Below are positions 12,871 to 30,058 of a stretch of 37,550 nucleotides of DNA, one piece after another. Made by a program: the position numbers and the translations under genes. The first letter of the stretch is position 1, and every line of letters begins with the position of its first letter. Origin of the DNA: Nitrosomonadales bacterium. Lineage in GTDB: Bacteria > Pseudomonadota > Gammaproteobacteria > Burkholderiales > Gallionellaceae. The notes beneath the pieces are model-generated. The model was not told where the DNA came from, made no database searches, and was given only the letters and a program-made list of their open reading frames with translations. Location: contig JACREC010000081.1 of assembly GCA_016218445.1 (NCBI GenBank), forward strand, positions 1 to 37,550, read 5' to 3'.

Positions 12871-14250
12871 TTACTTGTGAACGCCCAGCTTCTGGCGCCA
12901 GCCGGGATACAGTTTGTCAGCATCGTTCGGGAACGATTCGAAGGCACGGGCAAACTCTTTATGTTCTTTCGCCCATTCGATCGGGTCTGCGCCGGCCTTC
13001 CAGCATTCGTAGGACTGACGCAGGGAAATCGCGCCGGCAGCCGGGCTGTCGATGTGGCCGTAGGCGCCACCGCCGGCGGTGTTGATCACGTTGCCGTGAC
13101 CCAGATTTTCGAAGAAACCCGGCAGACGCAGCGCATTCATGCCGCCTGAGATGATCGGCGTGGTGGCCTTCATGCCGTACCATTCCTGATGGTAGAACGG
13201 GCCGGTGCAGGAATCGCGCTCGATCATGTAGGCGATGATGCGGTCGTCCTTGCCGCCTTCCATTTTGCCGTAGCCCATGGTGCCGACATGGATGCCGGAA
13301 GCGCCTTGCAGGCGCGACATCTTGGCCAGCACAAACGCGGTGTAGCCGCGCCTGGAGGAAGGCGATGTGACCATGCCGTGTCCGGCACGGTGGTAATGCA
13401 AAAACTGGCCGGGGTACTGGCGGCGTGCGGTGGTGATCATGCCGGGGCCGCCGACGAAACCATCCACCAGGAAGGCAACCTTGTCCGCATCCGGGCCGAA
13501 AGTTTCCAGCGCAAAGTCGGCGCGCGCGCACATTTCATAGTGGTCGTCAGCGGTAATGTTCATGGAGAACAACTTGGCCTGACCGGTTTCGTCCTGAGCA
13601 CGCTTGAACGAGTCATAAACCAACGGAAGAACTTTCTTGATCGGGCAGAACACCTGATTGCCTTGCGGTTCGTCGTTCTTGATGAAATCGCCGCCCAGCC
13701 AGAACTGGTATGCGGCGTGCGCAAACGGCTCGGGGCGCAGACCCAGCTTGGGCTTGATGATGGTGCCGGAAATGTAGCCGCCGTTTTCCACCGGACGGCC
13801 GAGGATGCGCCACAGGTCGGAGATGTTCTTGGCGGGGCCGTCGAACAGTTGCAACATGCGCGGCGGCATATAGAAATCCTGCATCTGCGAGTTTTTTATG
13901 TCGCTCATGCCCTGGTTGTTGCCGATCGCCAGGGTCAGGAAGGAAACCAGCATGGCGCGGCCATCGGTGATGTTGCGGTCGAACAGATCAATCGGGTAGG
14001 CGATCTTCATGATGCCTTTGGCCTCGTCGATCTTATACACCAGCGCGTCCACGCCCTTGGTGAAGTCGTCGGTGGTTGACACCTCCACGTTGGTGCCGGT
14101 GGAAGATTCGGCGGCAAAGTGCGCGGCGGCTTCCAGATAGCCGTGGCCTGCGGCGGGTTCCATGGTGTAGGCCACCAGCACGTGGTTGCCGCCCTTGATC
14201 AAGTCTTCCTCTTTCAGACTCAGATCGGCATAACGATTTGATTGATCCAT
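12871..14250 (-). CDS. cbbM: Form II RuBisCO large subunit
   Basis: A 459-aa form II ribulose-1,5-bisphosphate carboxylase, which acts as a large-subunit-only enzyme. The active site is intact and numbered like Rhodospirillum rubrum: K166 (in IIKPKLG), the carbamylated K191 with D193 and E194 (GGDFIKNDE). No small subunit is present, as expected. I start at 14250 because GGGAG lies 7 nt upstream; the frame opens 8 codons earlier. cbbR is divergent 134 nt away and should control it. The frequent downstream partners cbbQ and cbbO are missing here: a terminator follows immediately. Form II enzymes suit high CO2 and low O2. Confidence 0.97.
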
Positions 14251-14345
14251 TTCTTTCTCCCGGTTGATGAACAATATGAATTGCGATGGGGTGAACTATA
14301 AAGCCGCATAATCATAAATAATAGTCAAACTTTTTTATAAGAACC

Positions 14346-14360
14346 ATAAGCAACACTTAT
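14346..14360. promoter_or_regulatory. Probable CbbR (LysR-type) binding site
   Basis: ATAAG-CAACA-CTTAT is a perfect inverted repeat containing the LysR T-N11-A core, located 24 nt before the cbbR start and about 95 nt before cbbM. A further ATAAG lies just to the left, near 14336. The cbbR-cbbM divergent gap is otherwise AT-rich. The position fits autorepression of cbbR plus activation of cbbM. Confidence 0.6.
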
Positions 14361-14384
14361 ATATTGGTGTAGAATGCCTGCACC

Positions 14385-15338
14385 ATGTTTCATGTCACCT
14401 TACGCCAATTGCAGGTATTCGAAACCGTCGCGCGGCAACTGAGTTATTCGCGCGCGGCCAAGGCACTATACCTCAGCCAGCCAGCCGTTTCCATGCAGAT
14501 CAAGCAACTGGAAGAAAATATCGGCCTGCCGCTGTTCGAGCAGATGGGCAAGAAAATTTTTCTCACCGAAGCCGGCAAGGAGCTGTTCCAGTGCAGTTGC
14601 GCCATCACGCAGCAGCTCGCGGATGCGGATGTACTGTTCAGTGAAATGAAGGGTCTGGAGCATGGCCGCCTGAACATTTCGGTGGTCAGTACGGCCAATT
14701 ATTTCACCCCGCAACTGCTGGCCAAATTCTGCCAGCGTCATCCCAGCATCAATATTACTTTGAACGTGGCCAACCGCGACGCGGTACTCAAGCAGCTCGC
14801 CGACAATGCCACGGACCTTGCCATCATGGGCCAACCGCCGGAAAACGCCGAAATGCTGGCGCAGCAATTCATGAAAAACCCGCTGGTAGTGATCGCGCCT
14901 CCCGGTCATCCGTTATGCAAACTGAAACGCGTCAAACTCAAGCGGCTTGAACAGGAAACTTTCCTGCTGCGCGAACAAGGCTCCGGCACGCGCGGCGCGA
15001 TGGAGCGCTTCTTCGCCGGGCACGGCATCAAGTTCCATGCCGGGATGGAGATGGGCACCAACGAGGCGATCAAGCAAGCGGTGCAGGCAGGCATGGGGCT
15101 GGGCATACTCTCGCTGCACAGCGCCGAACTGGAGCTGGAGACCGGACGGCTGGCCGTGCTCAACGTGGAGCACTTTCCCATCGTGCGCCACTGGTACATC
15201 GTGCATCGCAAGAGCAAGCGCCTGTCCACCGCTGCGCAGGCGTTCAAGCAATTCCTGCTGACCGAGGCGGAACACCTGACCGCGCAAGCCGGCGGCAAAC
15301 ATAGAAAATCGCCGTCGAAATCTGGTAAGGCGGTGTAA
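14385..15338 (+). CDS. cbbR: LysR-type regulator CbbR
   Basis: A 317-aa LysR-family regulator. The winged helix-turn-helix occupies residues 1-65 (FHVTLRQLQVFETVARQLSY ... LSQPAVSMQIKQLE), followed by a substrate-binding-type effector domain (about 90-295). Its position divergent from cbbM and the CbbR-like HTH identify it as the Calvin-cycle regulator. The length is typical (about 300-320). The basic tail after 295 is probably disordered. The family senses metabolites such as RuBP, PEP or NADPH. Confidence 0.9.
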   Translation: MFHVTLRQLQVFETVARQLSYSRAAKALYLSQPAVSMQIKQLEENIGLPLFEQMGKKIFLTEAGKELFQCSCAITQQLADADVLFSEMKGLEHGRLNISVVSTANYFTPQLLAKFCQRHPSINITLNVANRDAVLKQLADNATDLAIMGQPPENAEMLAQQFMKNPLVVIAPPGHPLCKLKRVKLKRLEQETFLLREQGSGTRGAMERFFAGHGIKFHAGMEMGTNEAIKQAVQAGMGLGILSLHSAELELETGRLAVLNVEHFPIVRHWYIVHRKSKRLSTAAQAFKQFLLTEAEHLTAQAGGKHRKSPSKSGKAV

Positions 15339-15402
15339 TTCCGAATCCACCAGCCTCCCCCGCGTTGGATATAATGGCGGCGAACTACAAAGGAACCATG
15401 CT

Positions 15403-15693
15403 ATGCGCCCCTCTTTGGCACTGCAACAACACCGCGATGAAATCCGCCGCATCGCACTGAAGCACCGCGTTACCAACGTGCGTGTGTTTGGCTCTGCGCT
15501 GCACGGGGACGATACCGAAGACAGTGACCTCGACCTGCTGGTCGAACCCACATCGGAAACCACGCTGATGGATATTGGTGCTATCCGCTATGAGCTGAAA
15601 AAACTGCTCGGTATATCTGTGGATGTCCTTACCCCCAAAGCGCTGCCCGACAGTTTCAGGGAGCGCGTTCTTGCAGAGGCCACGCAGATATGA
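15403..15693 (+). CDS. mntA: MntA-type nucleotidyltransferase antitoxin
   Basis: A 96-aa minimal nucleotidyltransferase. The signature GS(x)3G at 30-35 and the catalytic SDxD at 41-44 are intact, followed by the LLVE strand. In the MntA/HepT (type VII) systems this enzyme modifies the HEPN toxin with AMP units and so silences it. The last codons overlap the toxin gene start by 4 nt (ATGA), so the two are translated together. It lies 64 nt after cbbR on the same strand and begins a defence region that continues to 22535. Confidence 0.9.
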   Translation: MRPSLALQQHRDEIRRIALKHRVTNVRVFGSALHGDDTEDSDLDLLVEPTSETTLMDIGAIRYELKKLLGISVDVLTPKALPDSFRERVLAEATQI

Positions 15694-16052
15694 GCAAGAC
15701 CGACAGTCTGCGTTTGCCTGAATACCTCCGCCACATTATTGAGGCTATTGAGCGCATTCACCACTATGTTGAAGACATGAGCGAAGTTGCATTCCTGGAA
15801 GATACAAAAACTCAGGATGCAGTCATCCGCAACTTTGAAATCATCGGCGAAGCCTCACGCAACATTGGACGCTACCATCCGAGATTTGCCGAGGAACATT
15901 CATATCTTCCGTTGGGATTCGCCTACGAAATGCGCAATGCGCTTTCTCACGGATACTTCAAGATTGATTTGGAAATCGTCTGGAAAACCATACACACCAG
16001 CCTGCCGCAACTGCATGCGCAGATCAAGCAACTGCTCGAACAAATCAAATAA
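15690..16052 (+). CDS. hepT: HepT-type HEPN ribonuclease toxin (DUF86)
   Basis: A 120-aa all-helical HEPN protein. The active RNase motif R-x4-H-x-Y is intact at R82, H87, Y89 (MRNALSHGYF). The tyrosine is the residue known to be AMPylated by MntA in this family. The 4-nt overlap with mntA and the antitoxin-first order are typical. The pair is convergent with the type I restriction operon to its right, a common arrangement in defence islands. Confidence 0.9.
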   Translation: MSKTDSLRLPEYLRHIIEAIERIHHYVEDMSEVAFLEDTKTQDAVIRNFEIIGEASRNIGRYHPRFAEEHSYLPLGFAYEMRNALSHGYFKIDLEIVWKTIHTSLPQLHAQIKQLLEQIK

Positions 16053-16090
16053 GCCAAGCAAGCCGGACGGCGGGGATTTTCGCGCCAGAG

Positions 16091-16209
16091 TTATTGTGCA
16101 GCCAGCCTGTTGAGCACAAACTTTCTCGGGAATTCCAGCTTGCCGTTGATGCCCACGATATGGCCAGCCAGCAGCGCGTCAAAGGTGGCTTGCGCCTCGG
16201 CAACCGCTG
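16091..16209 (-). pseudogene. Orphan 3'-end fragment of an hsdS-like gene
   Basis: On the minus strand, 16209 down to the stop at 16091-16093 encodes about 38 residues ending ..AEAQATFDALLAGHIVGING.. and a short basic tail. This is closely alike to the last codons of the intact hsdS (KAQATFDALLAQVFSINGG). At DNA level 16173-16201 matches 16882-16910 in 26 of 29 bases in direct orientation. The fragment has no start and is cut off by a TGA just upstream. It looks like the original end of hsdS, displaced when the 209-aa gene came in, or a relic of another hsdS copy. Confidence 0.7.
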
Positions 16210-16212
16210 TAA

Positions 16213-16842
16213 TTAGTTTAGATTTTCAGAGTCCTGCCCGGCAAGATGCTTTTGATGCTCAGCTTGTGCATTCTGGAGCAAGTCTTCCATCCCCGATGGA
16301 ATCGTTAGTGGGGATTTCAGTATGTCATTAACCCGCCGCTTTGTGGCACCATCATGCAAGCGCGCCAGCTCCTTGATCGCTTTTTCAAGAGCTGGAATGA
16401 GCATCCCTTTAAGCTGCCTCTCCACCAACAAAATTTCTTCGGCAGACGCCCCCTGAAGTGTTGCCATTGCCGGGATAGCGCTCAGTAGCCGGGAGATTTT
16501 TGCTCGTTCCCTCAGTTCGAATGCAGTGACTGGGTCTGTCTCGGAAAGTTGATCTATCGCTTCCCCATACCGAGTCACGAATTCATCTCCCTGCGGTAGC
16601 ACATATTCGAACGACGACTTATATGCTCGCCTACCGGATTCTGGCAGTGACAACTGTTTGACAAGGTGATCGGTGCATCCTTCAATTACGCGCACCCGAT
16701 GATGGAGAGCGAGGAGGTTTGATAGTGCCCGTCCAATGATGGCGCGTCGCTCTCGACTCAGTTGGAAGCGTTTCGACATCTCGTTGAGAAGCCACCCGGC
16801 AAGAATGCCGACCAATGAAAAAGCAAAACCCTCCCAAGACAT
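16213..16842 (-). CDS. Unknown protein with N-terminal membrane helix, last gene of hsd operon
   Basis: A 209-aa protein. One hydrophobic helix at about 5-20 (FAFSLVGILAGWLL) suggests a membrane anchor; the rest is helical and charged, with possible coiled coil around 25-60 and 135-170. No catalytic motif or known domain is apparent. It starts 5 nt after the hsdS stop, so it is in the operon. It lies between two related hsdS 3' ends, which suggests that it was inserted. Function unknown; a defence accessory role is a guess by location. Confidence 0.65.
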   Translation of the reverse strand: MSWEGFAFSLVGILAGWLLNEMSKRFQLSRERRAIIGRALSNLLALHHRVRVIEGCTDHLVKQLSLPESGRRAYKSSFEYVLPQGDEFVTRYGEAIDQLSETDPVTAFELRERAKISRLLSAIPAMATLQGASAEEILLVERQLKGMLIPALEKAIKELARLHDGATKRRVNDILKSPLTIPSGMEDLLQNAQAEHQKHLAGQDSENLN

Positions 16843-16847
16843 AATAT

Positions 16848-18020
16848 CTATCCCCCGTTAATAGAAAACACTTGTGCCAGTAGCGCGTCGAAGGTGGCTT
16901 GTGCCTTGGCTGTGGCGGCGGATTGCTGGGATTGGATAGAGCGAATTTGCTCGCATTTCTCGCTAAACATAACCTGATCATCCATGCTTGGATAAATGAA
17001 ACGCATACGCTTCAGTGCTTCCGTTTCAATATTTTGCACCGTCGCACCAACACGTACCAAGCCAAGAATTTCCTTCGCGCGAATTTGGCATTGAGACAAA
17101 AGAAAATGGGGAGCAATTTCCTTGTGCGGCACAAAGGCTTTTATGTCCTGATTTATGGCAACCTCTCTCGACGTGATTGCACAAGGCACTGTGTGCTTGA
17201 GCACACCGCTTCGAGTAACGATTAGAACTGAACCAACCGGGATCAAGTTTGTTGCGCTGTTTTTCACCGCATCCACAGAAATATGGTCTTCCGCATTTTC
17301 AATAACATCCACACCACTCATGTCTTTTGGGGACACCCACGGAATTTCTCCAATCCAGAAAGCAGGATTTTTCTTGGATGGAGTTCCTCCACCTTTAACA
17401 TCGCACAACTCCCCAAGAAGCGCTGAAGGACACCCTTTCGGATTTGTCGCCGGGTCGCCAAACATGTCGAGGAATAATGCGGGGATCAGCTCGGCAGCTT
17501 TTTTCTCAGCCTCGCGCCGCAGCCGCACGATGCCCTCGGCGCGGGAGAGAATATCCACGATGCGGCGTTGCTCAGCGAGTGGCGGCAGCGGTACATCAAT
17601 GTCTTTTAGTATTCCTTGATTGATATTTGGTTGAGCAACTCCGCGAGCAACACGATTCAACTCACCGTGCTGTGAATCTAAAAAATATCGCAGATATTGA
17701 GAATCGAGTTGGGCATTGTCTTTCGGAACAACACCCGCTATCGCTTGATTGGTTGCCGCCTCAATTCCAAGAACCGCAGTGCGCCCAATGGTGGCAAAAA
17801 TTGAAATCAGCACCGTGCCAGGTGGCATCAGCTTGGCACTACTGTTCTCGATGCCTGCGGCTGTCAGTGACTCATCTGTTGAAATCACCGTGCCTTGAAG
17901 CATGTCAGTGATTTTCACCCAAGGTATTCCGCCACCGAAGTATTCCAACTTCGTTCGTGATGGTGTTCCGCCGGTAAGGACTTGGCACACTTCGCCTAGC
18001 TTACGTGCTTGATGCGTCAT
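16848..18020 (-). CDS. hsdS: Type I restriction-modification specificity subunit
   Basis: A 390-aa HsdS, the DNA-recognition subunit. It has two target-recognition domains in tandem: the first at about 1-170 (KLGEVCQVLTGGTPSR ... PWVKITD) and the second at about 195-375 (LGELCDVKGGGTPSKK ... PWVSPKDM), each followed by a conserved helical spacer (PLPPLAEQRRIVDIL; and a second at the end). The recognition sequence cannot be predicted. It overlaps hsdM by 4 nt. The C-terminus (SINGG) is shorter than the related fragment at 16091-16209, so the gene may have lost its original tail. Confidence 0.93.
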   Translation of the reverse strand: MTHQARKLGEVCQVLTGGTPSRTKLEYFGGGIPWVKITDMLQGTVISTDESLTAAGIENSSAKLMPPGTVLISIFATIGRTAVLGIEAATNQAIAGVVPKDNAQLDSQYLRYFLDSQHGELNRVARGVAQPNINQGILKDIDVPLPPLAEQRRIVDILSRAEGIVRLRREAEKKAAELIPALFLDMFGDPATNPKGCPSALLGELCDVKGGGTPSKKNPAFWIGEIPWVSPKDMSGVDVIENAEDHISVDAVKNSATNLIPVGSVLIVTRSGVLKHTVPCAITSREVAINQDIKAFVPHKEIAPHFLLSQCQIRAKEILGLVRVGATVQNIETEALKRMRFIYPSMDDQVMFSEKCEQIRSIQSQQSAATAKAQATFDALLAQVFSINGG

Positions 18021-19678
18021 GCAGCTTGCTCCGCCAAGACTACCCGCAACGCTTCCACTTCCTCGGCAATCTCCACCTCAATCGCTGCCAGCTCATCCAG
18101 CAGTTCGCGCGGGTCGCGATGCTCGACGGCGGTTTGGCTCATCGGGCGGTAGCGTCCGGCAGAAAGGTTGAAGTCGTTGCTGCGCAAAGTGACTGCATCG
18201 GCGAACCACCATTGTTGAGTCCATTCCGCAACCCTCTCTCCCTGCCCCTCTCCCGCCCGCGGGCGAGGGGAGAAATGCGCTTGCCATTCCGTCCATCGTG
18301 CTTCCCGGCTGCGGTAGGCATCTGCCAGCATCGGCAGATCGTCGGCATCAATCGGTGTATCGTGGTTGGCATCCAGCTTGTAGCCATCGTTATCGGCATG
18401 CAGGAACATCACCTTGTCGGTCGTGCCGCCTTTCTTGAAGAACAGCACCGAGGTCTTCACTCCGGAATACGGTTGGAACACACCACCGGGCAATGACAGC
18501 ACTGCTTCGACCGTGTTGTTTTCGATCAACTGGCGGCGCAACTCCTTATGTGCGCCGGTGGAGCCGAACAGCACGCCTTCGGGAATGATGACACCGCAAC
18601 GCCCACTGGGACGCAGGCAGTCCATCATGTATTTCAGGAACAGCAGTTCGGTGGCGGTACTGGTGCCGACCTTCACTTCGTCCACGATGCGGTCTTTATC
18701 CACGCGACCGGAGAACGGCGGATTCGCCAACACGACGTGGTAGCCTTCCAACGGCAAGCCCAGTTCGCGCTTCTTCTCGTTGCCCAGCGTAGTAGTCAAG
18801 ACGTTGCGCAACAGGATGCGCACGTTGGGCAGGCCGCGCAGGGTGAGGTTCATGGTGGCGAGGCGCACCATCTTTGGATCAACGTCGTTGCCATAGAAGG
18901 TGCTGTTTTGCAACACGGATACTTGCGCCGCCGACAGTCTGTCGCCGATGCCGCGCTTCTGCAGCTTGCCGTCTGCTTCTGCTTCGCTGATTCCGCTGGG
19001 CGATGAGTTGGCCAGGCGGATATGGTTGAAGGCGGCGGCAAGAAAGCCTGCTGTCCCTGCGGCTGGGTCGTAGATGGTTTCGCCGATCTTCGGGTCGAGC
19101 ATGTCCACGATGGCGCGAATGATGTGGCGTGGAGTGCGGAACTGGCCGAGTTCACCGGCCTGCTTGATCTGACGCAGCACATGCTCGAACAGGTCGCCCT
19201 TGGTATCGGCATCCGCCTGATCCAGCCGCAGGCCATCCACCAGATTCACCACTTGGGTCAGCACGGTGGGTTCATCGATGGAAAGACGCGCACCATTCAT
19301 AAAATTGAAGGCGGAACGCTCGGCCACCTCCGTAAAGAACGGAAACACCTCATCGCGGACGAAGCGCACCAGCGCTTCCCCATTCAAGCCCTTGGCCCAC
19401 ACCGACCATTTGAAGCGGTCTTTGCTGATGGCCTTGATATTCGGCTCCGGCGCATTGAGCGGGTTGCGCAATGTCCATTCGCCCGCAAACAGCGATTCGT
19501 ATTTCTGCTTGAGCACCTTGGCCTTCATGGTGTTCTCGGCATCGATGCCTTCAATGAGGTAGAAGAAGAACAGGAAGGAAAGCTGTTCGGCGTTGCTCAT
19601 CGGATCGGGATAGCCGCCACCGTAGAGGTAGTTGCGTATCTGCTCGATGGATTGGCGCATTTCTGGGGTTAGTGGCAT
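18017..19678 (-). CDS. hsdM: Type I restriction-modification DNA methyltransferase
   Basis: A 553-aa HsdM, an N6-adenine methylase. The N-terminal helical domain (1-150) is followed by the SAM-binding DPAAGTAGF at 204-212 and the catalytic NPPF at 319-322. Residues 470-483 (SPRPRAGEGQGERV, DNA 18230-18271) look like a dispersed GC-rich palindrome read through in frame; it falls in a loop after the catalytic core and leaves the frame open. The gene overlaps hsdS by 4 nt and follows the 235-aa gene by 8 nt. Confidence 0.95.
   Translation of the reverse strand: MPLTPEMRQSIEQIRNYLYGGGYPDPMSNAEQLSFLFFFYLIEGIDAENTMKAKVLKQKYESLFAGEWTLRNPLNAPEPNIKAISKDRFKWSVWAKGLNGEALVRFVRDEVFPFFTEVAERSAFNFMNGARLSIDEPTVLTQVVNLVDGLRLDQADADTKGDLFEHVLRQIKQAGELGQFRTPRHIIRAIVDMLDPKIGETIYDPAAGTAGFLAAAFNHIRLANSSPSGISEAEADGKLQKRGIGDRLSAAQVSVLQNSTFYGNDVDPKMVRLATMNLTLRGLPNVRILLRNVLTTTLGNEKKRELGLPLEGYHVVLANPPFSGRVDKDRIVDEVKVGTSTATELLFLKYMMDCLRPSGRCGVIIPEGVLFGSTGAHKELRRQLIENNTVEAVLSLPGGVFQPYSGVKTSVLFFKKGGTTDKVMFLHADNDGYKLDANHDTPIDADDLPMLADAYRSREARWTEWQAHFSPRPRAGEGQGERVAEWTQQWWFADAVTLRSNDFNLSAGRYRPMSQTAVEHRDPRELLDELAAIEVEIAEEVEALRVVLAEQAA
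18230..18271. repeat. Dispersed GC-rich palindrome embedded in hsdM
   Basis: The plus strand reads a run of CCCTCTCCC-type units followed by CCCGCGGGCGAGGGGAG. It resembles the arms of the intergenic inverted repeat at 2613-2716 and gives 14 in-frame residues of odd composition (Pro, Arg, Gly, Glu). Repeats of this style are normally intergenic, so this is an in-frame insertion. Confidence 0.55.
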
Positions 19679-19686
19679 TTTTTCCT

Positions 19687-20394
19687 CTAGGTGTTTGGGT
19701 CGCGCAGTCCTGCGATGATGGCTATAAGATTTACAACTGATGTTGTGGCCTCAACGCAGATAGCAGCATCCCTGAATGTTGCTGTTCTGCGGTGCTGTAA
19801 ATGAACCGCCAAGTCGAGTGCCGCTTTTGCGTGTTTTCTCAAGAAATCGTTTGTGCTACCCGGTAATACCGCTGCGATATATGCCTCAAGCATTCGCTTT
19901 GCATCTGTTTGACTGGCCTTGATACCATCTGTTGTCGGATGTTGATTGTGATCAAACACAGCCTGAGCTGTGGATATCAATACCTCACGGCAGAGCAATC
20001 CAACAGCTTGAAAATGTTCCTCTGTGGTTGCTTGCGCTAAGCGGTTTCGAATTTCGGTAATTGTTCGATCCACGCGATTCCAACCGGTTGGCTCAAACTC
20101 TTCCTTGCGCCCCGATTTGATACGCTGCACAAGCTGCGCAAATAAACCGCTTACGAAAGTTCGCCGAGACTGGTATGTCGGCATGTCGCCGCTTGACCAG
20201 CGTCCGTACCAATCCCACAGATCAGAATATGGAAGGGGATTTTCGATGCCGCGAGACCTCAGTTGCTGGTCAATAGCATCGAAGGAAATTAGAAAAGCGT
20301 CATTCACATCCTGAATCTTTGCCCCCCCAGTGGATACTGAGATCATGGTGGATTTGAGGCGATCTAGTGCGGCCAAAAGCTCTACATCATTCAT
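19687..20394 (-). CDS. Unknown HEPN-like helical protein inside the hsd operon
   Basis: A 235-aa, helical, soluble protein between hsdR and hsdM. Its start overlaps the hsdR stop by 4 nt and its end is 8 nt from hsdM, so it is fully built into the operon. The C-terminal 70 residues (RKHAKAALDLAVHLQHRRTA and the following helix) resemble a C-terminal domain often seen in uncharacterised defence-associated proteins; the RKHAK/QHRR positions are reminiscent of HEPN-type helices but I see no clear R-x4-6-H catalytic motif. It could modulate the restriction enzyme or act as a separate abortive-infection element. Function unknown. Confidence 0.7.
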   Translation of the reverse strand: MNDVELLAALDRLKSTMISVSTGGAKIQDVNDAFLISFDAIDQQLRSRGIENPLPYSDLWDWYGRWSSGDMPTYQSRRTFVSGLFAQLVQRIKSGRKEEFEPTGWNRVDRTITEIRNRLAQATTEEHFQAVGLLCREVLISTAQAVFDHNQHPTTDGIKASQTDAKRMLEAYIAAVLPGSTNDFLRKHAKAALDLAVHLQHRRTATFRDAAICVEATTSVVNLIAIIAGLRDPNT

Positions 20395-22535
20395 TGAACG
20401 CTCGATTGAAACGGTTGCGGTGCAAGCTGTTCATTTGATTGATCGCCATGAAATACATTGGCATTGAGGCTTTCCATCGCCTCATCCAGTTGCGCCTTGC
20501 CACCGAAGACGCGCAGCGCATTCTGGTAGCCACCCTGCGAACTGAAGATCGGCAGTGCAAAGTGGTTGCTGGTAAACTTATCCCAAGTCTCGGCATTGGC
20601 GCGAATCTGGCTGCCGACCACGCGCAGCAGGTTCTCTTGGGAGGGGTTGAAGTCGGTGCGCGACACCAGCCACGCCTCGAAGCGCGCGCCCAGTTCGTTG
20701 GCTTTCTGTTCGGATACTTCCGGGAAGACGATGTTGCCGTCCTCGTCCACCGTGACCCACTCGCGGGTAGTCGGGTCGATGTGGTCGTCGATGTCCAGCG
20801 ACAACAGGCGGCGCGGCTCGTAATGTTTCTTGCGCGGTTGTTTGAATACGGTGATACCGCCCTGCGCATAGTCCTCATCATCACCGTGGTAGTCCGCCAC
20901 GCCCACGAAATCGAACATGGTGAACAGCGGCTTGTTTTGCGCCTTGCGCGTGCCGCGCCCGCGCATCTGCTGATACAGGATGACGGACTTGGTGAAGCGG
21001 GCGAATACCAGGTTGTTCACTTCCGGGCAATCGAAGCCGGTATCAAGCATGTTCACCGATACCAGTATCTGCGGGAATTGCTCCTTCTTGAAGCGCTTGA
21101 TCTTGGTCATGCCGTCCACGGTGTCGTCCTGCCCCATACCTGACACGACATAATCGGCATAACGAACATTCGGGGATGGTTTCTTGTCAGCAAAGGCTTC
21201 ATCGAACATCTGCGCCAGCGTTTCGGCATGGCGTTTGGTCACGGCGAACACGATGGTCTTGCCGAGCAGCGGCTTGCGCAGGATGCCCTTGTCCGTATAG
21301 CCGTTGTCCATCACCTGGCGATACTCGCGCACCAGCGCGCGGTTGCGTTCCGGGATGGTGAAGCGGCGCTCCAGTGCGTTCGGGTCGATCATCACGGAAT
21401 CGGATTCCTTGAACAGCACTTCGAATTCCTGCCTGGTCTTGGCATCCATTGCCGTCCAATCGAGTTCGTCGCGCTTCACCTCAAAACCACCCTCGGCGGC
21501 GGTCTTGACGGTCTTGGCCTTGTAAATCTGGTACGGCACGAGATAGCCATCCCGAATGGCATCCCTGAGCTTGTAGGTAAAGGTGGGTTTAGCCACTTCA
21601 AAGAATCTCAGGGTATCGCGCACGAACAGTTTGTCGTCTTCATCCTCGGTGGCGGTCTCCTCGCCGCCGACACATGGCGTTGCGGTCAGGCCGATCTGAA
21701 TGCCGTCGAAATGCTTGAGCACCCCGCTCCATTTGCCGTAGATGCTGCGGTGGCATTCATCCGAGATGATGAGGTCGAAATATCCGGCGGAGTAGTCGCC
21801 ATAGATGTTGATCATGCTTTGCAGCGTGGTGATGGTGATGCGCTTCTCATCCTGGAAGCGGCGGCCTGCACGCAGCACATAGGACGGGTAATCCGGCAGG
21901 TGTTCAGCAAAAGCGTCTTCGGTCTGCAAAGCCAGCGGGATGCGATCCACCAGAAACAACACTCGGGTGACGGCGTTTGCCTCGAACAGCCGCTTGATGA
22001 GTGCAGCGGCGGCACGCGTCTTGCCGGTGCCGGTCGCCATCTCCACCAGCAGCTTGCGCCTGCCCTGCTCTATTTCCTGGCACAGGGTCTGGATGCACTG
22101 TTGCTGGTAGTCGCGTCCGGCGATTTTGACATCAATAGGAATGCTCAAAGGTTTGCGCGCGACTTGCAAAGTGGCAAAGCGTCGCTCCAGATCATCCTGT
22201 TTGAAGAAGGTCTTGACCGAGCGCGGATAGGCTTCGCGCTGCCATTCCCAGAATTGAATCTCGTTGCCGTTGGCAAGGAAGATGTAAGGAACATTGAGTT
22301 GCCTGGCATAGTTCTTCGCCTGCTCGGCGGCATCGCCGGGACTGACCGAAAACCGCTTGGCCTCGATCACCGCCAGCGAGCGACCATGCCGGTCGCACAG
22401 CACATAGTCGGCTCGCGTGCCATCTTCCAACACTACCTCGTAACGGACGCTGGAACCATCGGCAAGGCTCCAGCCTTGAGCGGTGAGCTGGCTGTCGATG
22501 ATGACGCGGGAGAAGGCTTCGTTGGTTGAAGACAT
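20391..22535 (-). CDS. hsdR: Type I restriction-modification restriction subunit
   Basis: A 714-aa HsdR of the EcoEI-like short type. The N-terminal nuclease domain has the conserved Asp and the EAK of a PD-(D/E)xK site (RADYVLCDRHGRSLAVIEAK), followed by SF2 helicase motifs: GTGKT of the Walker A, DECH box, the LTATP motif III and the QMRGRGTR of motif VI. The motor translocates DNA and cuts away from the recognition site. The ATG at 22535 is chosen because MSSTNEAF fits homologues better than the ATG six codons earlier. It is the first gene of the hsd operon, starting about 70 nt left of the fba terminator. Confidence 0.94.
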   Translation of the reverse strand: MSSTNEAFSRVIIDSQLTAQGWSLADGSSVRYEVVLEDGTRADYVLCDRHGRSLAVIEAKRFSVSPGDAAEQAKNYARQLNVPYIFLANGNEIQFWEWQREAYPRSVKTFFKQDDLERRFATLQVARKPLSIPIDVKIAGRDYQQQCIQTLCQEIEQGRRKLLVEMATGTGKTRAAAALIKRLFEANAVTRVLFLVDRIPLALQTEDAFAEHLPDYPSYVLRAGRRFQDEKRITITTLQSMINIYGDYSAGYFDLIISDECHRSIYGKWSGVLKHFDGIQIGLTATPCVGGEETATEDEDDKLFVRDTLRFFEVAKPTFTYKLRDAIRDGYLVPYQIYKAKTVKTAAEGGFEVKRDELDWTAMDAKTRQEFEVLFKESDSVMIDPNALERRFTIPERNRALVREYRQVMDNGYTDKGILRKPLLGKTIVFAVTKRHAETLAQMFDEAFADKKPSPNVRYADYVVSGMGQDDTVDGMTKIKRFKKEQFPQILVSVNMLDTGFDCPEVNNLVFARFTKSVILYQQMRGRGTRKAQNKPLFTMFDFVGVADYHGDDEDYAQGGITVFKQPRKKHYEPRRLLSLDIDDHIDPTTREWVTVDEDGNIVFPEVSEQKANELGARFEAWLVSRTDFNPSQENLLRVVGSQIRANAETWDKFTSNHFALPIFSSQGGYQNALRVFGGKAQLDEAMESLNANVFHGDQSNEQLAPQPFQSSVQ

Positions 22536-22602
22536 GGCGCGGAAGGTTATCACAGCTCAACGGATGTTTCGACATATCTGATGAGGAGGGTATTTGGCCG
22601 AA

Positions 22603-22632
22603 ACAAAAAGCGGCCCGAAGGCCGCTTTTTTG
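22603..22632 (-). terminator. Rho-independent terminator after fba
   Basis: GCGGCC and GGCCGC pair around a CGAA tetraloop, with AAAAA before and TTTTTT after. It lies about 20 nt past the fba stop and ends the tkt-gap-pgk-pyk-fba unit, separating it from the hsd operon that begins at 22535. Confidence 0.9.
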
Positions 22633-22649
22633 TTGGTGCAATTTGTTGC

Positions 22650-23714
22650 TTACTTGACGACCGCCTTCAGTTCACCCTTGGCATATTTGGCAGCAATGGC
22701 TTCCAGCGAGATCGCCTTGATCTTGCCTGCCTGCCCTGCGGAGCCGAAGGCTTCGAAGCGCGATTTGCAGATTTCCTTCATCGCCTTGGTGGTGGCCGCG
22801 AGGAATTTGCGCGGGTCGAAGTCCTTGGGATTTTCCGCCAGGTAGCGGCGTGTCGCCCCGGTGGATGCCATGCGCAGGTCGGTGTCTATGTTCACCTTGC
22901 GCACGCCGTGCCTGATGCCCTCGACAATTTCCTCGACCGGCACGCCGTAAGTCTGGCCCATTGCGCCGCCGTACTGGTTGATGATCTTGAGCCATTCCTG
23001 CGGCACGCTGGATGAGCCGTGCATCACCAGGTGGGTGTTGGGTATCTTGGCGTGGATTTCCTTGATGCGGGAAATCGCCAGCACGTCGCCGGTGGGCGGC
23101 CGGGTGAATTTGTAGGCACCGTGGGAAGTGCCGATGGCGATGGCGAGTGCGTCAACACCGGTCGCCTTGACGAATTCGGCGGCCTCGGTCGGGTCGGTCA
23201 GCAGTTGATCCATGGTCAGCCCGCCTTCCGCGCCGTGGCCGTCTTCCTTCTCGCCATGGCCGGATTCCAACGAACCCAGGCAGCCCAGTTCGCCTTCGAC
23301 GGACACGCCGACCGCATGGGACATTTCCACCACCTTGCGCGTGACCTCCACGTTGTATTCAAAGCTTGACGGGGTTTTCCCGTCGGTCATCAGCGAGCCG
23401 TCCATCATTACACTGGAAAAACCGGAGCGGATGGCCTGGATGCAGACGGCGGGGGAAGCGCCATGGTCCTGGTGCATCACCACCGGAATATGCGGATAGG
23501 CTTCCACGGCGGCTTCGATGAGATGGCGCAGAAACGCCTCGCCCGCATACTTGCGCGCACCGGCGGAGCCTTGCATGATCACCGGGCTGTTGGTTTCGTC
23601 AGCCGCCTCCATGATGGCCTTGATCTGTTCCAGGTTGTTGACGTTGAATGCGGGCAGGCCGTAGCTGTTTTCCGCAGCGTGATCGAGAAGTTGACGCAGA
23701 GATACGAGTGCCAT
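22650..23714 (-). CDS. fba: Class II fructose-1,6-bisphosphate aldolase
   Basis: A 354-aa zinc-dependent aldolase, joining DHAP with GAP (and with erythrose-4-phosphate to make sedoheptulose bisphosphate in the Calvin cycle). Zn and substrate residues sit in [26 protein letters not shown] and KVNIDTDLR. The length and Calvin-type context match CbbA. The start ATG ([10 protein letters not shown]) has a purine-rich GAGAGGAAAAG upstream. It is the last gene of the tkt-gap-pgk-pyk-fba unit, followed by a terminator. Confidence 0.95.
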
Positions 23715-23752
23715 TTTCTTTTCCTCTCAGCAAATAAAAATATTAAATGATG

Positions 23753-23830
23753 AAGTTGGAAGACGTAAGTCTTGAGACGTAAGCAAAACCTCTGGTTTGC
23801 TTTTCAACTTTCGTCTTACGTCTAACAACT
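23753..23830. repeat. Inverted pair of 7-bp arrays between fba and pyk
   Basis: Left arm 23753-23787: AAGTTGG, AAGACGT, AAGTCTT, GAGACGT, AAGCAAA. Right arm 23796-23830: TTTGCTT, TTCAACT, TTCGTCT, TACGTCT, AACAACT. Each arm is five units of exactly 7 bp; the arms are inverted relatives (GACGTAAG on one side, CTTACGTC on the other), with an 8-nt spacer. The outermost unit touches the pyk stop codon at 23829-23831. The transcript would form a long hairpin after pyk. Confidence 0.75.
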
Positions 23831-25268
23831 AATGTTTACTGTGATCCCCGACACGCATGATCTTCATCGTGTTGGTATGCCCCGATTTACCCATCGCTTC
23901 ACCGATGGTCATCACCACCATATCGCCTTCCTTAACCAGGCCCTGTTCCACGAGTGTTGCCTCAATCTGGCGCCATTCTTCCGACTGCCCCCTGGCTTTG
24001 GAATGGAATGCGATGGGATGCACGCCGCTGAATAAAGTCACCTTGCTCAACGTTTCCGGCAGCGGGGTCAGCGCAAAAATCGGCACGCCGGCATTCACGC
24101 GTGACATCCACAACGGTGTCGAGCCGGATTGAGTCAGGGCAATGATGGCCTTCACCTTGAAGTGCGACGCGGCAAACAGTGCAGACATGGCAATGGACTG
24201 GTCAATGCGCGTAAATTTTTGTTGCACAATGCGGCGGTCAAACACATGCTCTTCCAGCTCCCGCTCAGCCTTGAGACAGATGCGTGCCATGGCTTCGATG
24301 GTTTCCACCGGATAGTCGCCTACCGCCGTTTCTGCCGAGAGCATCACCGCATCCGTGCCGTCCAGCACGGCGTTGGCCACATCCGACACTTCCGCACGGG
24401 TCGGGATCGGGTTGTTGATCATCGACTCCATCATTTGCGTGGCGGTAATCACCAGGCGATTTTTTGCGCGCGCCATTTTGATCATGCGCTTTTGCAGGCC
24501 GGGCACGGCCGCATCGCCGACTTCCACGCTCAAATCGCCGCGCGCCACCATGATGGCATCGGACGCGTCGATGATATCGCCCAGTGCCGGAATTGCCTCG
24601 GCACGCTCGATCTTGGCCATCAGCAGACTTTTGCCGCCCGCCGCATGCATCAGCTCGCGCGCCAGGCGCATGTCATCACCGTTGCGCGGGAACGACACCG
24701 CCAGGTAGTCCGCCTTGATCAGCGCGGCGGTCTTGATATCTTCCTTATCCTTGTCGGTCAGCGCCGGCGCAGTCAGGCCGCCGCCCTTGCGGTTGATGCC
24801 CTTGTTGTTCGACAGCACGCCGCCGCGCACCACCCTGCAAATTATCTCGTGGCCTTTGACTTCGACGACATCGAATTCCAGCATACCGTCGTTGAGCAAC
24901 AGCACCGAACCCTTGCTGACATCCCTGGGCAAATCTTTGTAATCCAGCCCGACGCGCTGCTGATTACCCAGCCCCTCCAGCGCGGCATCGAGAATGAAAG
25001 TATCGCCCTTGTTCAGAATGATCTTGTCATTCTCAAATTTGCGCACGCGGATTTTCGGGCCTTGCAGGTCGGCCAGCATGCCCACCGTGCGCCCTACTAC
25101 TGCCGCTGCCGCACGCACCGTTTCGGCACGCTCCACATGATCCTGCACCGAGCCATGCGAGAAATTCATCCGCACCAGGTCAACTCCGGCGCGTATCATC
25201 TGCTCAAGGACTTTCTGGTCGCTGGAAGCGGGCCCCAGCGTTGCAACTATTTTGGTTCTACGCAGCAT
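23829..25268 (-). CDS. pyk: Pyruvate kinase
   Basis: A 479-aa pyruvate kinase converting PEP and ADP to pyruvate and ATP. Start MLRRTKIVATLGPASS is the family N-terminus. Active-site stretches are present: RMNFSHG, the Lys/metal segment MAKIERAEA, GDLSVEVG and the ATQMMESMI motif; the C-terminal allosteric domain is full length. It sits between pgk and fba inside a Calvin/glycolysis cluster. In an autotroph it drains fixed carbon from PEP to pyruvate. Confidence 0.96.
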   Translation of the reverse strand: MLRRTKIVATLGPASSDQKVLEQMIRAGVDLVRMNFSHGSVQDHVERAETVRAAAAVVGRTVGMLADLQGPKIRVRKFENDKIILNKGDTFILDAALEGLGNQQRVGLDYKDLPRDVSKGSVLLLNDGMLEFDVVEVKGHEIICRVVRGGVLSNNKGINRKGGGLTAPALTDKDKEDIKTAALIKADYLAVSFPRNGDDMRLARELMHAAGGKSLLMAKIERAEAIPALGDIIDASDAIMVARGDLSVEVGDAAVPGLQKRMIKMARAKNRLVITATQMMESMINNPIPTRAEVSDVANAVLDGTDAVMLSAETAVGDYPVETIEAMARICLKAERELEEHVFDRRIVQQKFTRIDQSIAMSALFAASHFKVKAIIALTQSGSTPLWMSRVNAGVPIFALTPLPETLSKVTLFSGVHPIAFHSKARGQSEEWRQIEATLVEQGLVKEGDMVVMTIGEAMGKSGHTNTMKIMRVGDHSKH

Positions 25269-25284
25269 GTGTTCCTTTTTAGGC

Positions 25285-25359
25285 TAGTAGCTAGTCGTTA
25301 GTCGCTAGTTGAAAAACTGATTTAACTAATGACTACCGACTACCAACTAACGACTACTT
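25285..25359. repeat. Inverted pair of 7-bp arrays between pyk and pgk
   Basis: Left arm 25285-25312: TAGTAGC, TAGTCGT, TAGTCGC, TAGTTGA (four units). Right arm 25325-25359: ACTAATG, ACTACCG, ACTACCA, ACTAACG, ACTACTT (five units). Period is exactly 7 bp in both, and the arms are inverted copies around a 12-nt spacer. The last unit contains the pgk stop codon (25354-25356). Confidence 0.85.
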
Positions 25360-26550
25360 CTCTGCTCGTTGTTCCAGAATATCCACTGCCGGCAATTTCT
25401 TGCCCTCGAGGAATTCAAGGAAGGCACCACCGGCGGTGGAGATGTATGACACCTTGTCATAGATGCCGTACTTCTGGATTGCGGCGATGGTGTCGCCGCC
25501 GCCCGCCAGGGTGAAGGCTTTGGTTTCTGCAATCGCCATGGCAATTTTTCTGGTGCCTGCGCCGAACTGGTCGAATTCGAATACCCCGACCGGGCCATTC
25601 CAAACCACTGTACCGGCCTGCATGATGATGTCGGCGAGTTCTTGGGCCGACCTGGGACCGATGTCGAAAATCATTTCGTCGTCCGCTACATCCTTCGCGT
25701 TTTTCAAAATGGCCGGCGTGTTCTCGTTACCCGCCACAAAAGGGGCCTGCTTACCGACCACGACATCGGTTGCAATCGGAATGCCTGCGCCGCGCGCGGA
25801 CATTTTCTTCATCAATGCCTGCGCGGTAGGAACCAGATCATTTTCACACAACGATTTGCCGACCGGATAGCCGGCAGCCTTGAGGAAAGTATTGGCAATG
25901 CCGCCGCCGACCACCAACTGTTCACACTTTTCCGACAGGCTTTCCAGCACGGTCAGCTTGGTGGAAACCTTGGAACCGCCGACGATGGCCACCATCGGGC
26001 GCGCCGGGTTGAGCAATGCTTTGGTCAAGGCTGCCAATTCCTCGGTGAGCAAAATGCCCGCTGCCGCTACCGGCGCATACTTTGCCACACCGTGGGTCGA
26101 GGCTTCGGCGCGGTGCGCCGTGCCGAATGCGTCCATCACGAACACATCGCACAGCGCGGCATATTTTTTCGCGGTTTCATCCAGGTTCTTTTTCTCGCCC
26201 TTGTTGAAACGGCAGTTTTCCAGCAACACCAATTCGCCTGCGGCAACGTTAAAGCCGCCATTTACCCAGTCCTTGATCAGCCGCACGGGCTTGCCCAGCC
26301 TGTTGGCGATGACATCCGCTACCGGCTTGAGCGAGTTTTCTTCGGAATAAACGCCTTCTTCGGGGCGGCCCAGATGGGAAGTCACCATCACGCGCGCACC
26401 GGCTTTCAGCGCGAAATTGATCGTCGCCATCGAAGCGGTGATGCGCGCATCCGAGGTTACCTTGCCGTCCTTGACCGGCACGTTGAGATCGGAGCGGATC
26501 AGGACGCGCTTGCCCTTGAGGTCCAGATCGGTCATTTTGATAACGGACAT
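25354..26550 (-). CDS. pgk: Phosphoglycerate kinase
   Basis: A 398-aa monomeric kinase interconverting 1,3-bisphosphoglycerate and 3-phosphoglycerate, the first ATP step after RuBisCO. Family motifs include [29 protein letters not shown] and the nucleotide loop [11 protein letters not shown]. An AGGAG lies 6 nt before the ATG. The stop codon lies inside the last heptamer of the downstream repeat. It belongs to the tkt-gap-pgk-pyk-fba unit. Confidence 0.96.
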
Positions 26551-26569
26551 TTTTTCTCCTGAAAAGAAA

Positions 26570-26671
26570 GTAGCCTGTAGCTTGTAGCGGGTAGCGAGTA
26601 GCTATTCAAGGTGCGCGCTCCGCGCGCGGCATCTAAAGCTACAAGCTACCAGCTACTGGCTACAAGCTGTC
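26570..26671. repeat. Inverted pair of 7-bp arrays between pgk and gap
   Basis: Left arm 26570-26604: GTAGCCT, GTAGCTT, GTAGCGG, GTAGCGA, GTAGCTA. Right arm 26637-26671: AGCTACA, AGCTACC, AGCTACT, GGCTACA and a worn AGCTGTC. The middle (26605-26636) holds its own GC-rich palindrome (GCGCGCTCCGCGCGC). Only the first five bases of each heptamer are conserved; the last two drift. Confidence 0.88.
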
Positions 26672-26683
26672 TTGCCAGCTGAT

Positions 26684-27817
<1,134 letters not shown>

Positions 27818-27850
27818 TTAAATTACGCTTTTAACGGCCTTCACCACGTT
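27818..27850 (-). pseudogene. Second, diverged tkt 3' end
   Basis: The minus strand encodes NVVKAVKSVI and a TAA stop. The intact tkt ends [10 protein letters not shown] and TAA at 27928. Eight of ten residues match, with many synonymous codon differences, so it is not a recent copy. It follows 77 nt after the tkt stop in the same orientation. The simplest reading is that tkt was replaced by a related allele through recombination that left the old gene end behind. Confidence 0.6.
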
Positions 27851-27927
27851 GTGACTACGGCCGGGACTGTGTCCCTTAACATTCGCTATGCTCATGTTAG
27901 CCTGCGCCGCAATGTCGTCGTTACTTG

Positions 27928-29940
27928 TTACAAAACACCTTTAACTGCTTTGACGACATTGTCCGCAGTAATGCCGAAGTGCTTGAACAACTCGGGTGCC
28001 GGGGCGGATTCGCCGAAGCAATCCATACCCACCACTGCGCCATCCAGACCCGCATACTTATACCAGCCGCCCGTCACGCCCGCTTCAACCGCCACGCGCT
28101 TTACACCCTTGGGCAAGACGCTGTCCTTGTAGGCCTGGTCTTGCTTGTCGAACACGTTGGTGGACGGCATGGACACTACGCGCACATTGATACCCGCGGC
28201 AGCCAGCGTTTTTTGCGCTTCCATTGCCAAGGCAACTTCGGAACCTGTCGCGATCAACACGGCCTGGAGCTTTCCTGCGGCTTCCGACAGCACATACGCG
28301 CCCTTGCGGATGCTGGCGATTTGCGCCGCATTGCGTTTCTGAAATGCCAGGTTCTGGCGGCTGAAAACCAGACTGCTCGGGCCGTCCTTGCGCTCGACCG
28401 CGGCAACCCACGCGGCGGCGGATTCAACCGTGTCGCACGGACGCCACAATTCCATATTGGGGATGTAGCGCAAGGTAGCGGTTTGCTCGACCGGCTGGTG
28501 CGTCGGGCCGTCTTCGCCCAGGCCGATGGAGTCGTGGGTGAACACATAGATCACACGCTGCTTCATCATGGCCGACATGCGCAAGGCATTGCGCGCATAT
28601 TCGGAGAACATCAGGAAGGTGCCGCCGAATGGCAGGAAGCCGCCGTGCAACGCCATGCCGTTCATGATGTGCGACATGCCGAATTCCCGCACGCCGTAGC
28701 TGATGTAGTTGCCTATGCTCTTGCCGCGGATATGCTTGCAACCTGTCCAGTTGGTCAGGTTGGAACCGGTCAGGTCGGCCGAGCCGCCGAGAAATTCAGG
28801 CAGTGCCGGAGCCAGGGCATTGATGGCATTTTGCGAAGCCTTGCGCGTGGCGATGGTTTCCGCTTTTTCATTGGTCTTGGCCAGCACGTCAGCCGCATGT
28901 GCTTTCCAGTTGGCCGGCAATTCACCCTTGATGCGACGCTCAAATTCGGCAGCTTCTTTCGGAAACGCGGCGCGATATTCGGCAAACTTGTTGTTCCACA
29001 ATTTTTCCAGGCCTTCACCCTTGGTGCGTGCATCCCATGCCGCGTAAATATGCTTGGGAATTTCAAACGGCGGGTATTTCCACCCAATGTGTTCGCGTGT
29101 CGCAGCCACTTCGGCATCACCCAATGCGGCGCCATGTACGTCATGGGTGCCGGCCTTGTTGGGAGAGCCTGCGCCGATAATGGTTTTGCAGCAAATCAGG
29201 GTGGGCTTGTCGGTGACCGCCTTGGCGGCCTTGATCGCGGCATTGATCGCTTCCGGGTCATGCCCTTGCACGTTGGGGATGACATGCCAGCCGTAGGCCT
29301 CGAAGCGCTTCGGTGTATCGTCGGTGAACCAGCCGCCCACATGGCCGTCAATCGAGATGTCGTTGTCGTCCCAGAATGCAGTCAGCTTGCCCAGGCCCCA
29401 GGTGCCGGCCAGCGCGCAAGCTTCATGCGAGAGGCCTTCCATCATGCAGCCGTCACCCATGAACACATAGGTATGGTGGTTGACGATTTCATGGCCGGGC
29501 TTGTTGAATTCCGCAGCCAGCAATTTTTCCGCCATTGCCATGCCCACCGCGTTGGTGATGCCCTGGCCGAGCGGGCCGCCGGTGGTTTCCACACCGGGCG
29601 TATAGCCATATTCGGGATGGCCGGGGGTCTTGGAGTGCATCTGGCGGAAACGCTTCAACTCTTCCATCGGCAAGTCGTAGCCGGACAGGTGCAGCAGCGC
29701 ATAAACCAGCATGGAGCCGTGGCCATTGGACAACACAAAACGGTCGCGATCAGCCCACTTCGGGTTGGCCGGATTGTGGCGCAAGTGGTGATTCCACAAC
29801 ACCTCGGCGATTTCCGCCATGCCCATCGGCGCGCCGGGGTGGCCGGAGTTCGCCTTTTGCACGGCATCCACTGCCAGCATCCGGATCGCGCCGGTAATGT
29901 CATTAAACTTGGGGGGGGTGATATCACGCGTCGCAGCCAT
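27928..29940 (-). CDS. tkt: Transketolase
   Basis: A 670-aa thiamine-diphosphate enzyme of the regenerative Calvin cycle and pentose phosphate pathway. Motifs: [11 protein letters not shown] near the N-terminus, the TPP-binding GDGCMMEG with the following conserved stretch to WDDN, and the pyrimidine-domain segments QTLRYIP-like and [16 protein letters not shown]. Length and family match. A GGAGG lies about 12 nt before the ATG. It is the first gene of the tkt-gap-pgk-pyk-fba unit (CbbT role). A diverged 3' remnant lies just downstream. Confidence 0.96.
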
Positions 29941-30058
29941 CTCTCACTAAGCCTCCTGAACAACCCTGATCGGGTTGAATTGTCGCAGCCTCAAAGGAAG
30001 GTGATTATGCCGCACTGCCCTGTTTAAGGCAACAGCGGCAAGCCGAGGAAACTCCGGG

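Follow-up and report, generated by a model that had tools for sequence, protein, structure and literature searches.

HEPN proteins encoded in restriction-modification (RM) operons are already known, PrrC above all, and the PrrC model is described in the available text of PMC3710099. In EcoprrI the RM system forms the first line of defence and the PrrC nuclease the second (available text of PMC3710099 and PMC2610378). "Solo" AbiJ proteins in RM operons are likewise on record (PMC3710099, Table 1 and section 12, as available), and the same section describes a modular domain pattern for AbiJ proteins. Here we analyse a gene, called Q below, that lies between hsdR and hsdM of a type I RM operon. 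Like PrrC in EcoprrI, Q encodes a HEPN-superfamily protein, in its case by predicted fold and as a putative effector, inside a type I hsd operon. In contrast, PrrC, an anticodon nuclease, combines an ABC-ATPase N-terminal part with a working HEPN motif, whereas Q has a helical N-terminal domain of ~96 residues and lacks Rx4-6H; no ABC ATPase of the PrrC/RloC kind was matched in its 235 residues, for which the model is all-helical.

Other described systems share further features with Q. AbiJ/Abi_C (PF14355) proteins, like Q and its relatives, join a variable N-terminal domain to a helical C-terminal domain and the domains are swapped, but the Abi_C sequences compared carry R(N/H)...HG where Q has HxR. 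The best structural match of both structure models described below was to the HEPN-T type, exemplified by AF0298 (2hsb), at a sequence identity of 7–9%. HepT of the HepT/MntA toxin-antitoxin systems has the HEPN fold that is predicted for Q, but Q has no adjacent nucleotidyltransferase, its neighbours being hsdR and hsdM, and no HepT-like Pfam match was found for it. Our literature search returned no description of the Q family in an hsdR-hsdM junction. The linkage of HEPN proteins with RM is established in the available text of PMC3710099. What is added here is a family without a name, its non-canonical site and a particular slot for cargo.

The window is the whole 37,550-nt stretch of DNA analysed, from a Nitrosomonadales bacterium of the Gallionellaceae (contig JACREC010000081.1, assembly GCA_016218445.1). 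On its minus strand the operon runs hsdR, Q, hsdM, hsdS and a 209-aa ORF (Table 1), and all three hsd genes were recognised by Pfam and PADLOC; hsdR has an alternative GTG start at 22553. A preliminary description of this DNA had placed Q correctly while omitting its strand, which is minus: the ORF of 235 codons runs from an ATG at 20394 to a TAG ending at 19687. The 4-nt overlap with hsdR claimed there is the ATGA at which hsdR ends (20391), and the claimed abutting of hsdM holds as a gap of 8 nt between the Q stop and the hsdM start at 19678. To call Q "fused" into the operon, as that description did in its title, is wrong. Q is a separate ORF, and the overlap, kept in the window and in the related locus L002, is replaced by a 9-nt gap in a third locus, L003.

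Table 1. Positions of the RM genes, of Q and of the features at its ends and in its product.
Feature	Position	Strand	Basis or remark
hsdR, type I restriction subunit, 714 aa from ATG	20391..22535	-	HSDR_N_2, ResIII, EcoEI_R_C
ATGA overlap (hsdR stop and Q start codon)	20391..20394	-	also present in L002
Q, 235 aa	19687..20394	-	ORF, AlphaFold model (pLDDT 88), structure match, relatives
Q helical N-terminal domain (predicted)	about residues 1-96		model
Q HEPN-fold C-terminal domain (predicted)	about residues 101-235		model, structure match
Q codons 201-203 (invariant His201, Arg203)	19786..19794	-	counted from ATG at 20394
GAGGA, probable hsdM ribosome-binding site, overlapping Q stop codon	19683..19687	-	read by eye
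hsdM, N6 DNA methylase, 553 aa	18017..19678	-	N6_Mtase 6e-53 (Pfam)
hsdS, specificity subunit, 390 aa	16848..18020	-	Methylase_S (Pfam)

Only a weak GAG purine tract is seen by eye upstream of the Q ATG, in contrast to the GAGGA that precedes hsdM. Because of this difference and of the ATGA overlap, we infer that translation of Q probably depends on hsdR and that hsdM can start independently. Scans for promoters and terminators found fewer sites in the real sequence than in shuffled ones and were set aside. Q is present in one copy in the window's own genome, of which the assembly is 85% complete. Since its dN/dS is 0.10 against the 94%-identical L002 copy and relatives occur in several phyla, Q is not a chance ORF; judged from these comparisons, it is a real protein under purifying selection.

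The 209-aa ORF (16213-16842, minus strand) begins 5 nt after hsdS and encodes a hydrophobic N-terminus. Pfam, PADLOC and NCBIfam gave it no significant match, and phmmer found no counterpart in L002 or L003. About 160 bp beyond it, at 15403-16052 on the plus strand, an MNT nucleotidyltransferase gene and a HepT-like gene form a HEPN toxin-antitoxin pair that faces the RM operon; the HepT of this pair shows, by eye, a canonical RNxxxH. The RM block is embedded within a CO2-fixation gene cluster (12871-30027). On one flank stand what we take, from their sequences, to be form II RuBisCO-like and LysR genes, and on the other presumably those for aldolase, pyruvate kinase, PGK, GAPDH and transketolase. 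The cbbR-to-fba interval measures ~1.1 kb in a genome of the same genus (L096); in the window ~7.3 kb of it is taken up by the RM-Q block together with the 209-aa ORF and the MNT/HEPN pair. The L002 operon contig also carries a relaxase, a HU-like protein and an integrase. Because of this interval comparison and these mobility genes, Q seems to travel along with the RM operon.

AlphaFold predicts an all-helical structure for Q (24 sequences, pLDDT 88, pTM 0.56). When residues 101-235 were compared by VIA-align, the top rows were almost all HEPN: 2hsb ranked first (rmsd 2.7 Å over 114 residues) with a Z of 11.4, a level near 11 that helical bundles can attain through common arrangement, followed by 3mfn (10.9, unnamed function), the sacsin HEPN domain (10.6), 1wol (10.4) and MntA-HepT (9.0). 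HEPN entries also led the ranking for a second model, built with 13 sequences for the longer relative L005: 2hsb came top (Z 11.6, rmsd 2.7, 116 residues), then sacsin (11.0) and HepT (10.4), and generic helical bundles appeared at about 7.6 and below. Foldseek, run against PDB and BFVD, found nothing at E<=1e-3. On balance a HEPN fold is likely for the C-terminal domain of Q, as modelled. The preliminary description had guessed at a helical HEPN/Abi-like defence domain, and the ranking of both models supports it, as do relatives that join Q-type domains to AbiJ_NTD3 and Abi_C (below). It had also named a structural match to a known RM subunit or housekeeping protein as grounds for refutation, and no such match was obtained.

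The predicted fold is not accompanied by the usual RNase motif. An Rx4-6H ending at His201 occurs in none of the 24 rows of alignment A1 and in one of the 22 rows of A2, and none starting at Arg203 was found in either. Because this motif is absent, we file Q as a HEPN-like fold and not as a canonical HEPN RNase. The available text of PMC3710099 describes Rx4-6H as usual yet not universal in the superfamily, and its section 6 reports that some HEPN families use other sites; among them is the 2hsb type, in which the usual His is missing and a different His precedes the motif on the N-terminal side. In Q, His201 is present in every row of A1 (24/24) and A2 (22/22), and Arg203 in 24/24 and 20/22; as judged from the sequence, codons 201-203 lie near the place where HEPN RNases carry their active-site motif. 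Six further residues (Arg136, Glu137, His152, Asp164, Lys166 and Arg167) never vary in A1 where a row extends to them, and the more divergent A2 retains each in 18–20 of its 22 rows. The putative His201-x-Arg203 site loosely resembles the 2hsb-type alternative site.

The absence of a canonical motif, together with the position between hsdR and hsdM, would also fit a HEPN-like protein without catalytic activity, one that adjusts restriction by binding RNA or the Hsd complex, in the manner presumed for MtlR; according to the available text of section 14 of PMC3710099, motif-less HEPN domains may be non-catalytic binders. We consider such a regulator improbable, since the invariant His201 and the conserved Arg203, Arg136, Glu137, His152, Asp164, Lys166 and Arg167 give the impression of an active site that has been kept, Q is missing from 14 of 17 close operons (defined below), and the family is mostly found without RM.

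Searches of Pfam, PADLOC, NCBIfam and PHROGs gave no significant match to Q; the weak hits to RVT_N (0.039) and Cas8a (0.0099) were set aside as chance or as falling short of the cut-off. No sequence relative was found in PDB (best E 0.38), Pfam gave no PF14355 or AbiJ_NTD match at E<=1, and none of the 24 members of A1 matched PF14355. AbiJ_NTD5 (PF18865), considered for the N-terminal domain, was rejected: it did not match Q and occurs in one of 158 genomes of the family (G364). Links to Abi proteins come instead from domain combinations. L028 and L029 join AbiJ_NTD3 to a domain 57–60% identical to the C-terminal domain of Q, and L041 joins Abi_C (E 3e-23) to a Q-like N-terminal domain, a likeness that is weak (E 8e-5 among 4,599 pooled ORFs, 3e-4 in the family genomes). 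Additionally, three Abi_C proteins of the window's family (L074-L076) have an N-terminal part that looks similar, by eye, to that of L029, and L023, L040, L093 and L094 have still other N-termini. Together these sequence comparisons show domain exchange between Q relatives and Abi proteins, the L041 case being weak, and by analogy the swaps follow the modular pattern described for AbiJ proteins. A profile comparison by hhalign of the Q C-terminal domain with Abi_C was not significant (probability 0.6%, on shallow input of 8 Abi_C sequences and a Q-side Neff of 2.4). Therefore we do not claim sequence homology between the two; they would be equivalent in architecture and predicted fold.

The Q family is rare, patchy and cross-phylum. 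Relatives were found at 25 loci in the species-genome collection, in 28 of 72,556 plasmid records, in none of 50,697 phage records and on 2 viral contigs; on one of these, L036, the gene lies on the opposite strand amid capsid, connector and gp10 genes. Counting the window's own genome each time, relatives occur in 2 of 300 genomes of the order, in 4 of 158 of the family (two of them matched in one domain only) and in 3 of 398 of the phylum, the last count being for the C-terminal domain. Full-length relatives are mostly about 350 aa and carry an additional alpha/beta N-terminal domain, which gave weak, mixed structure matches and was left unnamed. Two relatives, L022:7611-8693 and L024:4338-5410, are each split into two ORFs, which suggests decay or sequencing error. 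The plasmid relatives L029 and L033 have in common another neighbouring gene of unknown kind, and L029 also adjoins S8 peptidase and ATPase genes.

We next consider the neighbours of these relatives. Among 225 ORFs within 3 kb of 36 relative loci (the window, repeat copies and the broken copies L022 and L024 excluded), HsdR was the sole family found at more than two loci (L002, L003, L013 and L023; 4/36), and no recurrent antitoxin-like or small partner appeared. In L023 (Proteiniclasticum) the order is hsdM-hsdS-ORF-hsdR followed by the Q-type gene, of which the frame opens 10 nt after the hsdR stop and the first ATG lies about 50 nt after it. In L013 (Bacteroidales) the order is hsdS-GmrSD-hsdR-YgjP-Q, and the RM operons of both loci are unrelated to that of the window. 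Thus a Q-type gene stands close behind hsdR in three settings, with the window lineage counted once; L010, where an EcoR124-type HsdR is followed by a KAP NTPase, an unnamed ORF and Q, is a looser fourth. Hsd-profile matches were found at L002, L003, L010, L013 and L023 among 39 relative loci and L017 gave one weak helicase match, while the other 33 had no Hsd-profile match in the flanking DNA examined, some of it short. The association with hsdR is therefore recurrent but confined to a minority of relatives. The preliminary description had tied the dose of Q to the restriction enzyme and read Q as a restriction regulator or as a back-up abortive element triggered when RM is inhibited. It is partly supported: the helical HEPN/Abi-like domain is borne out by the models, and a dose tied to HsdR, triggering by RM inhibition and catalytic activity are suppositions; the canonical RNase motif is missing, and 33 of the 39 loci have no hsd match nearby.

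These loci, with relatives mostly alone, on plasmids, on a phage contig or in DNA with no hsd match, bear on a second explanation, namely that Q is a stand-alone Abi-type effector that shares the transcript and the mobility of the RM operon and has no functional gate by restriction. The composition of the gene points the same way, since Q differs from hsdR and hsdM in GC3 and, against L002, in dS, and the junction accepts other genes too (see below). Against it, hsdR is the only neighbour that recurs at more than two loci, in three unrelated settings, and the two genes overlap both in the window and in L002. Overall we regard such independence of restriction as possible but somewhat doubtful.

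To place Q in its operon we compared 17 close operons: the window, L002 (which includes the DNA of L043), L003, L044-L055, L072 and L073. Outside this count are L056 and L064, which are cut, and L057-L063 and L065-L071, which are 36–45% identical over the match; no match to Q was found at any of the HsdR loci L056-L071. The junction holds Q in three of the 17 (window, L002 and L003). It is empty in ten, with hsdM starting 7–45 nt after hsdR, and carries other cargo in the remaining four: a GIY-YIG gene in three (L046, L047 and L048) and a reverse-strand ORF in one, which we take from its motif to be NUDIX-like. The GIY-YIG gene of L047 encodes 97 aa and starts on an ATGA that overlaps the hsdR stop; Pfam confirmed its identity, and the other two were assigned by similar sequence. 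Could Q be a detached HsdR domain or an essential part of the RM enzyme? Its operon position and its overlap with hsdR are the only points in favour. HsdR has the same length in Q-free sister operons (707–754 aa, the cut rows L053 and L055 aside), hsdM follows hsdR directly in the ten empty junctions, and Q has no hsd-type Pfam match. Such a structural role is highly improbable, and we reject it as largely refuted by the Q-free sister operons.

Q and its neighbours also differ in their divergence. Between the window and L002, dS is 0.36 for Q, 1.14 for hsdR and 0.95 for hsdM; the synonymous divergence of Q (19687-20394 against L002:8001-8708) is thus about a third of that of the flanking genes. 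GC3 in the window is 0.47 for Q and 0.74 for both hsdR and hsdM. Because of the lower dS and the different GC3, the sequences suggest that Q, while under purifying selection, has an exchange history partly separate from that of its neighbours. In the HsdR tree the window and L002 group with the Q-free L044 (support 95/91), and an AU test rejected a single clade of the three Q-bearing HsdRs (p 0.0015), so the presence of Q at the junction is not explained by simple single descent. The three junction Qs group together in the Q tree with support of only 88/86. From these trees, it looks as if what is apparently a single lineage of Q occupies this junction in distinct HsdR lineages through repeated insertion, exchange or loss.

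The explanation that we favour, and to which we give about an even chance, is that Q is an Abi-type effector with a HEPN fold, carried as cargo at the hsdR/hsdM junction and coupled to and gated by the RM system. Q would be a single-gene, two-domain Abi-type defence protein in which the N-terminal helical domain presumably senses or inhibits and the C-terminal domain is the HEPN-fold effector with a non-canonical active site. Inserted as cargo, it would be co-transcribed with and translationally coupled to hsdR, and would be held silent by the restriction complex or by its own N-terminal domain. A phage that neutralises or overwhelms restriction would release Q, and the released protein would cut or block RNA, so that growth stops with an abortive outcome. 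RNA as the target, gating by RM, release by anti-restriction and the abortive outcome are thus proposed steps of this scheme, by which Q is perhaps a second line of defence analogous to PrrC.

More tentatively, and in our view rather less than probably, the Q proteins may form an undescribed family of HEPN-fold effectors with a rebuilt active site, and the hsdR/hsdM junction may be a dedicated slot where coupled effectors (Q, GIY-YIG nucleases) replace one another under the guard of the restriction enzyme. The candidate site in that case would consist of His201 and Arg203, supported by Arg136-Glu137, His152 and Asp164/Lys166/Arg167. Near-identical operons with Q, without Q and with a GIY-YIG gene exist naturally, which makes it directly testable whether restriction guards a second-line killer. 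If this reading is true, type I RM operons would offer a place where back-up effectors can be exchanged, and the abortive-infection repertoire would gain a HEPN-like family that current Pfam, PADLOC, NCBIfam and PHROG models miss. The bacterium itself may then carry a second line of phage defence inside the first.
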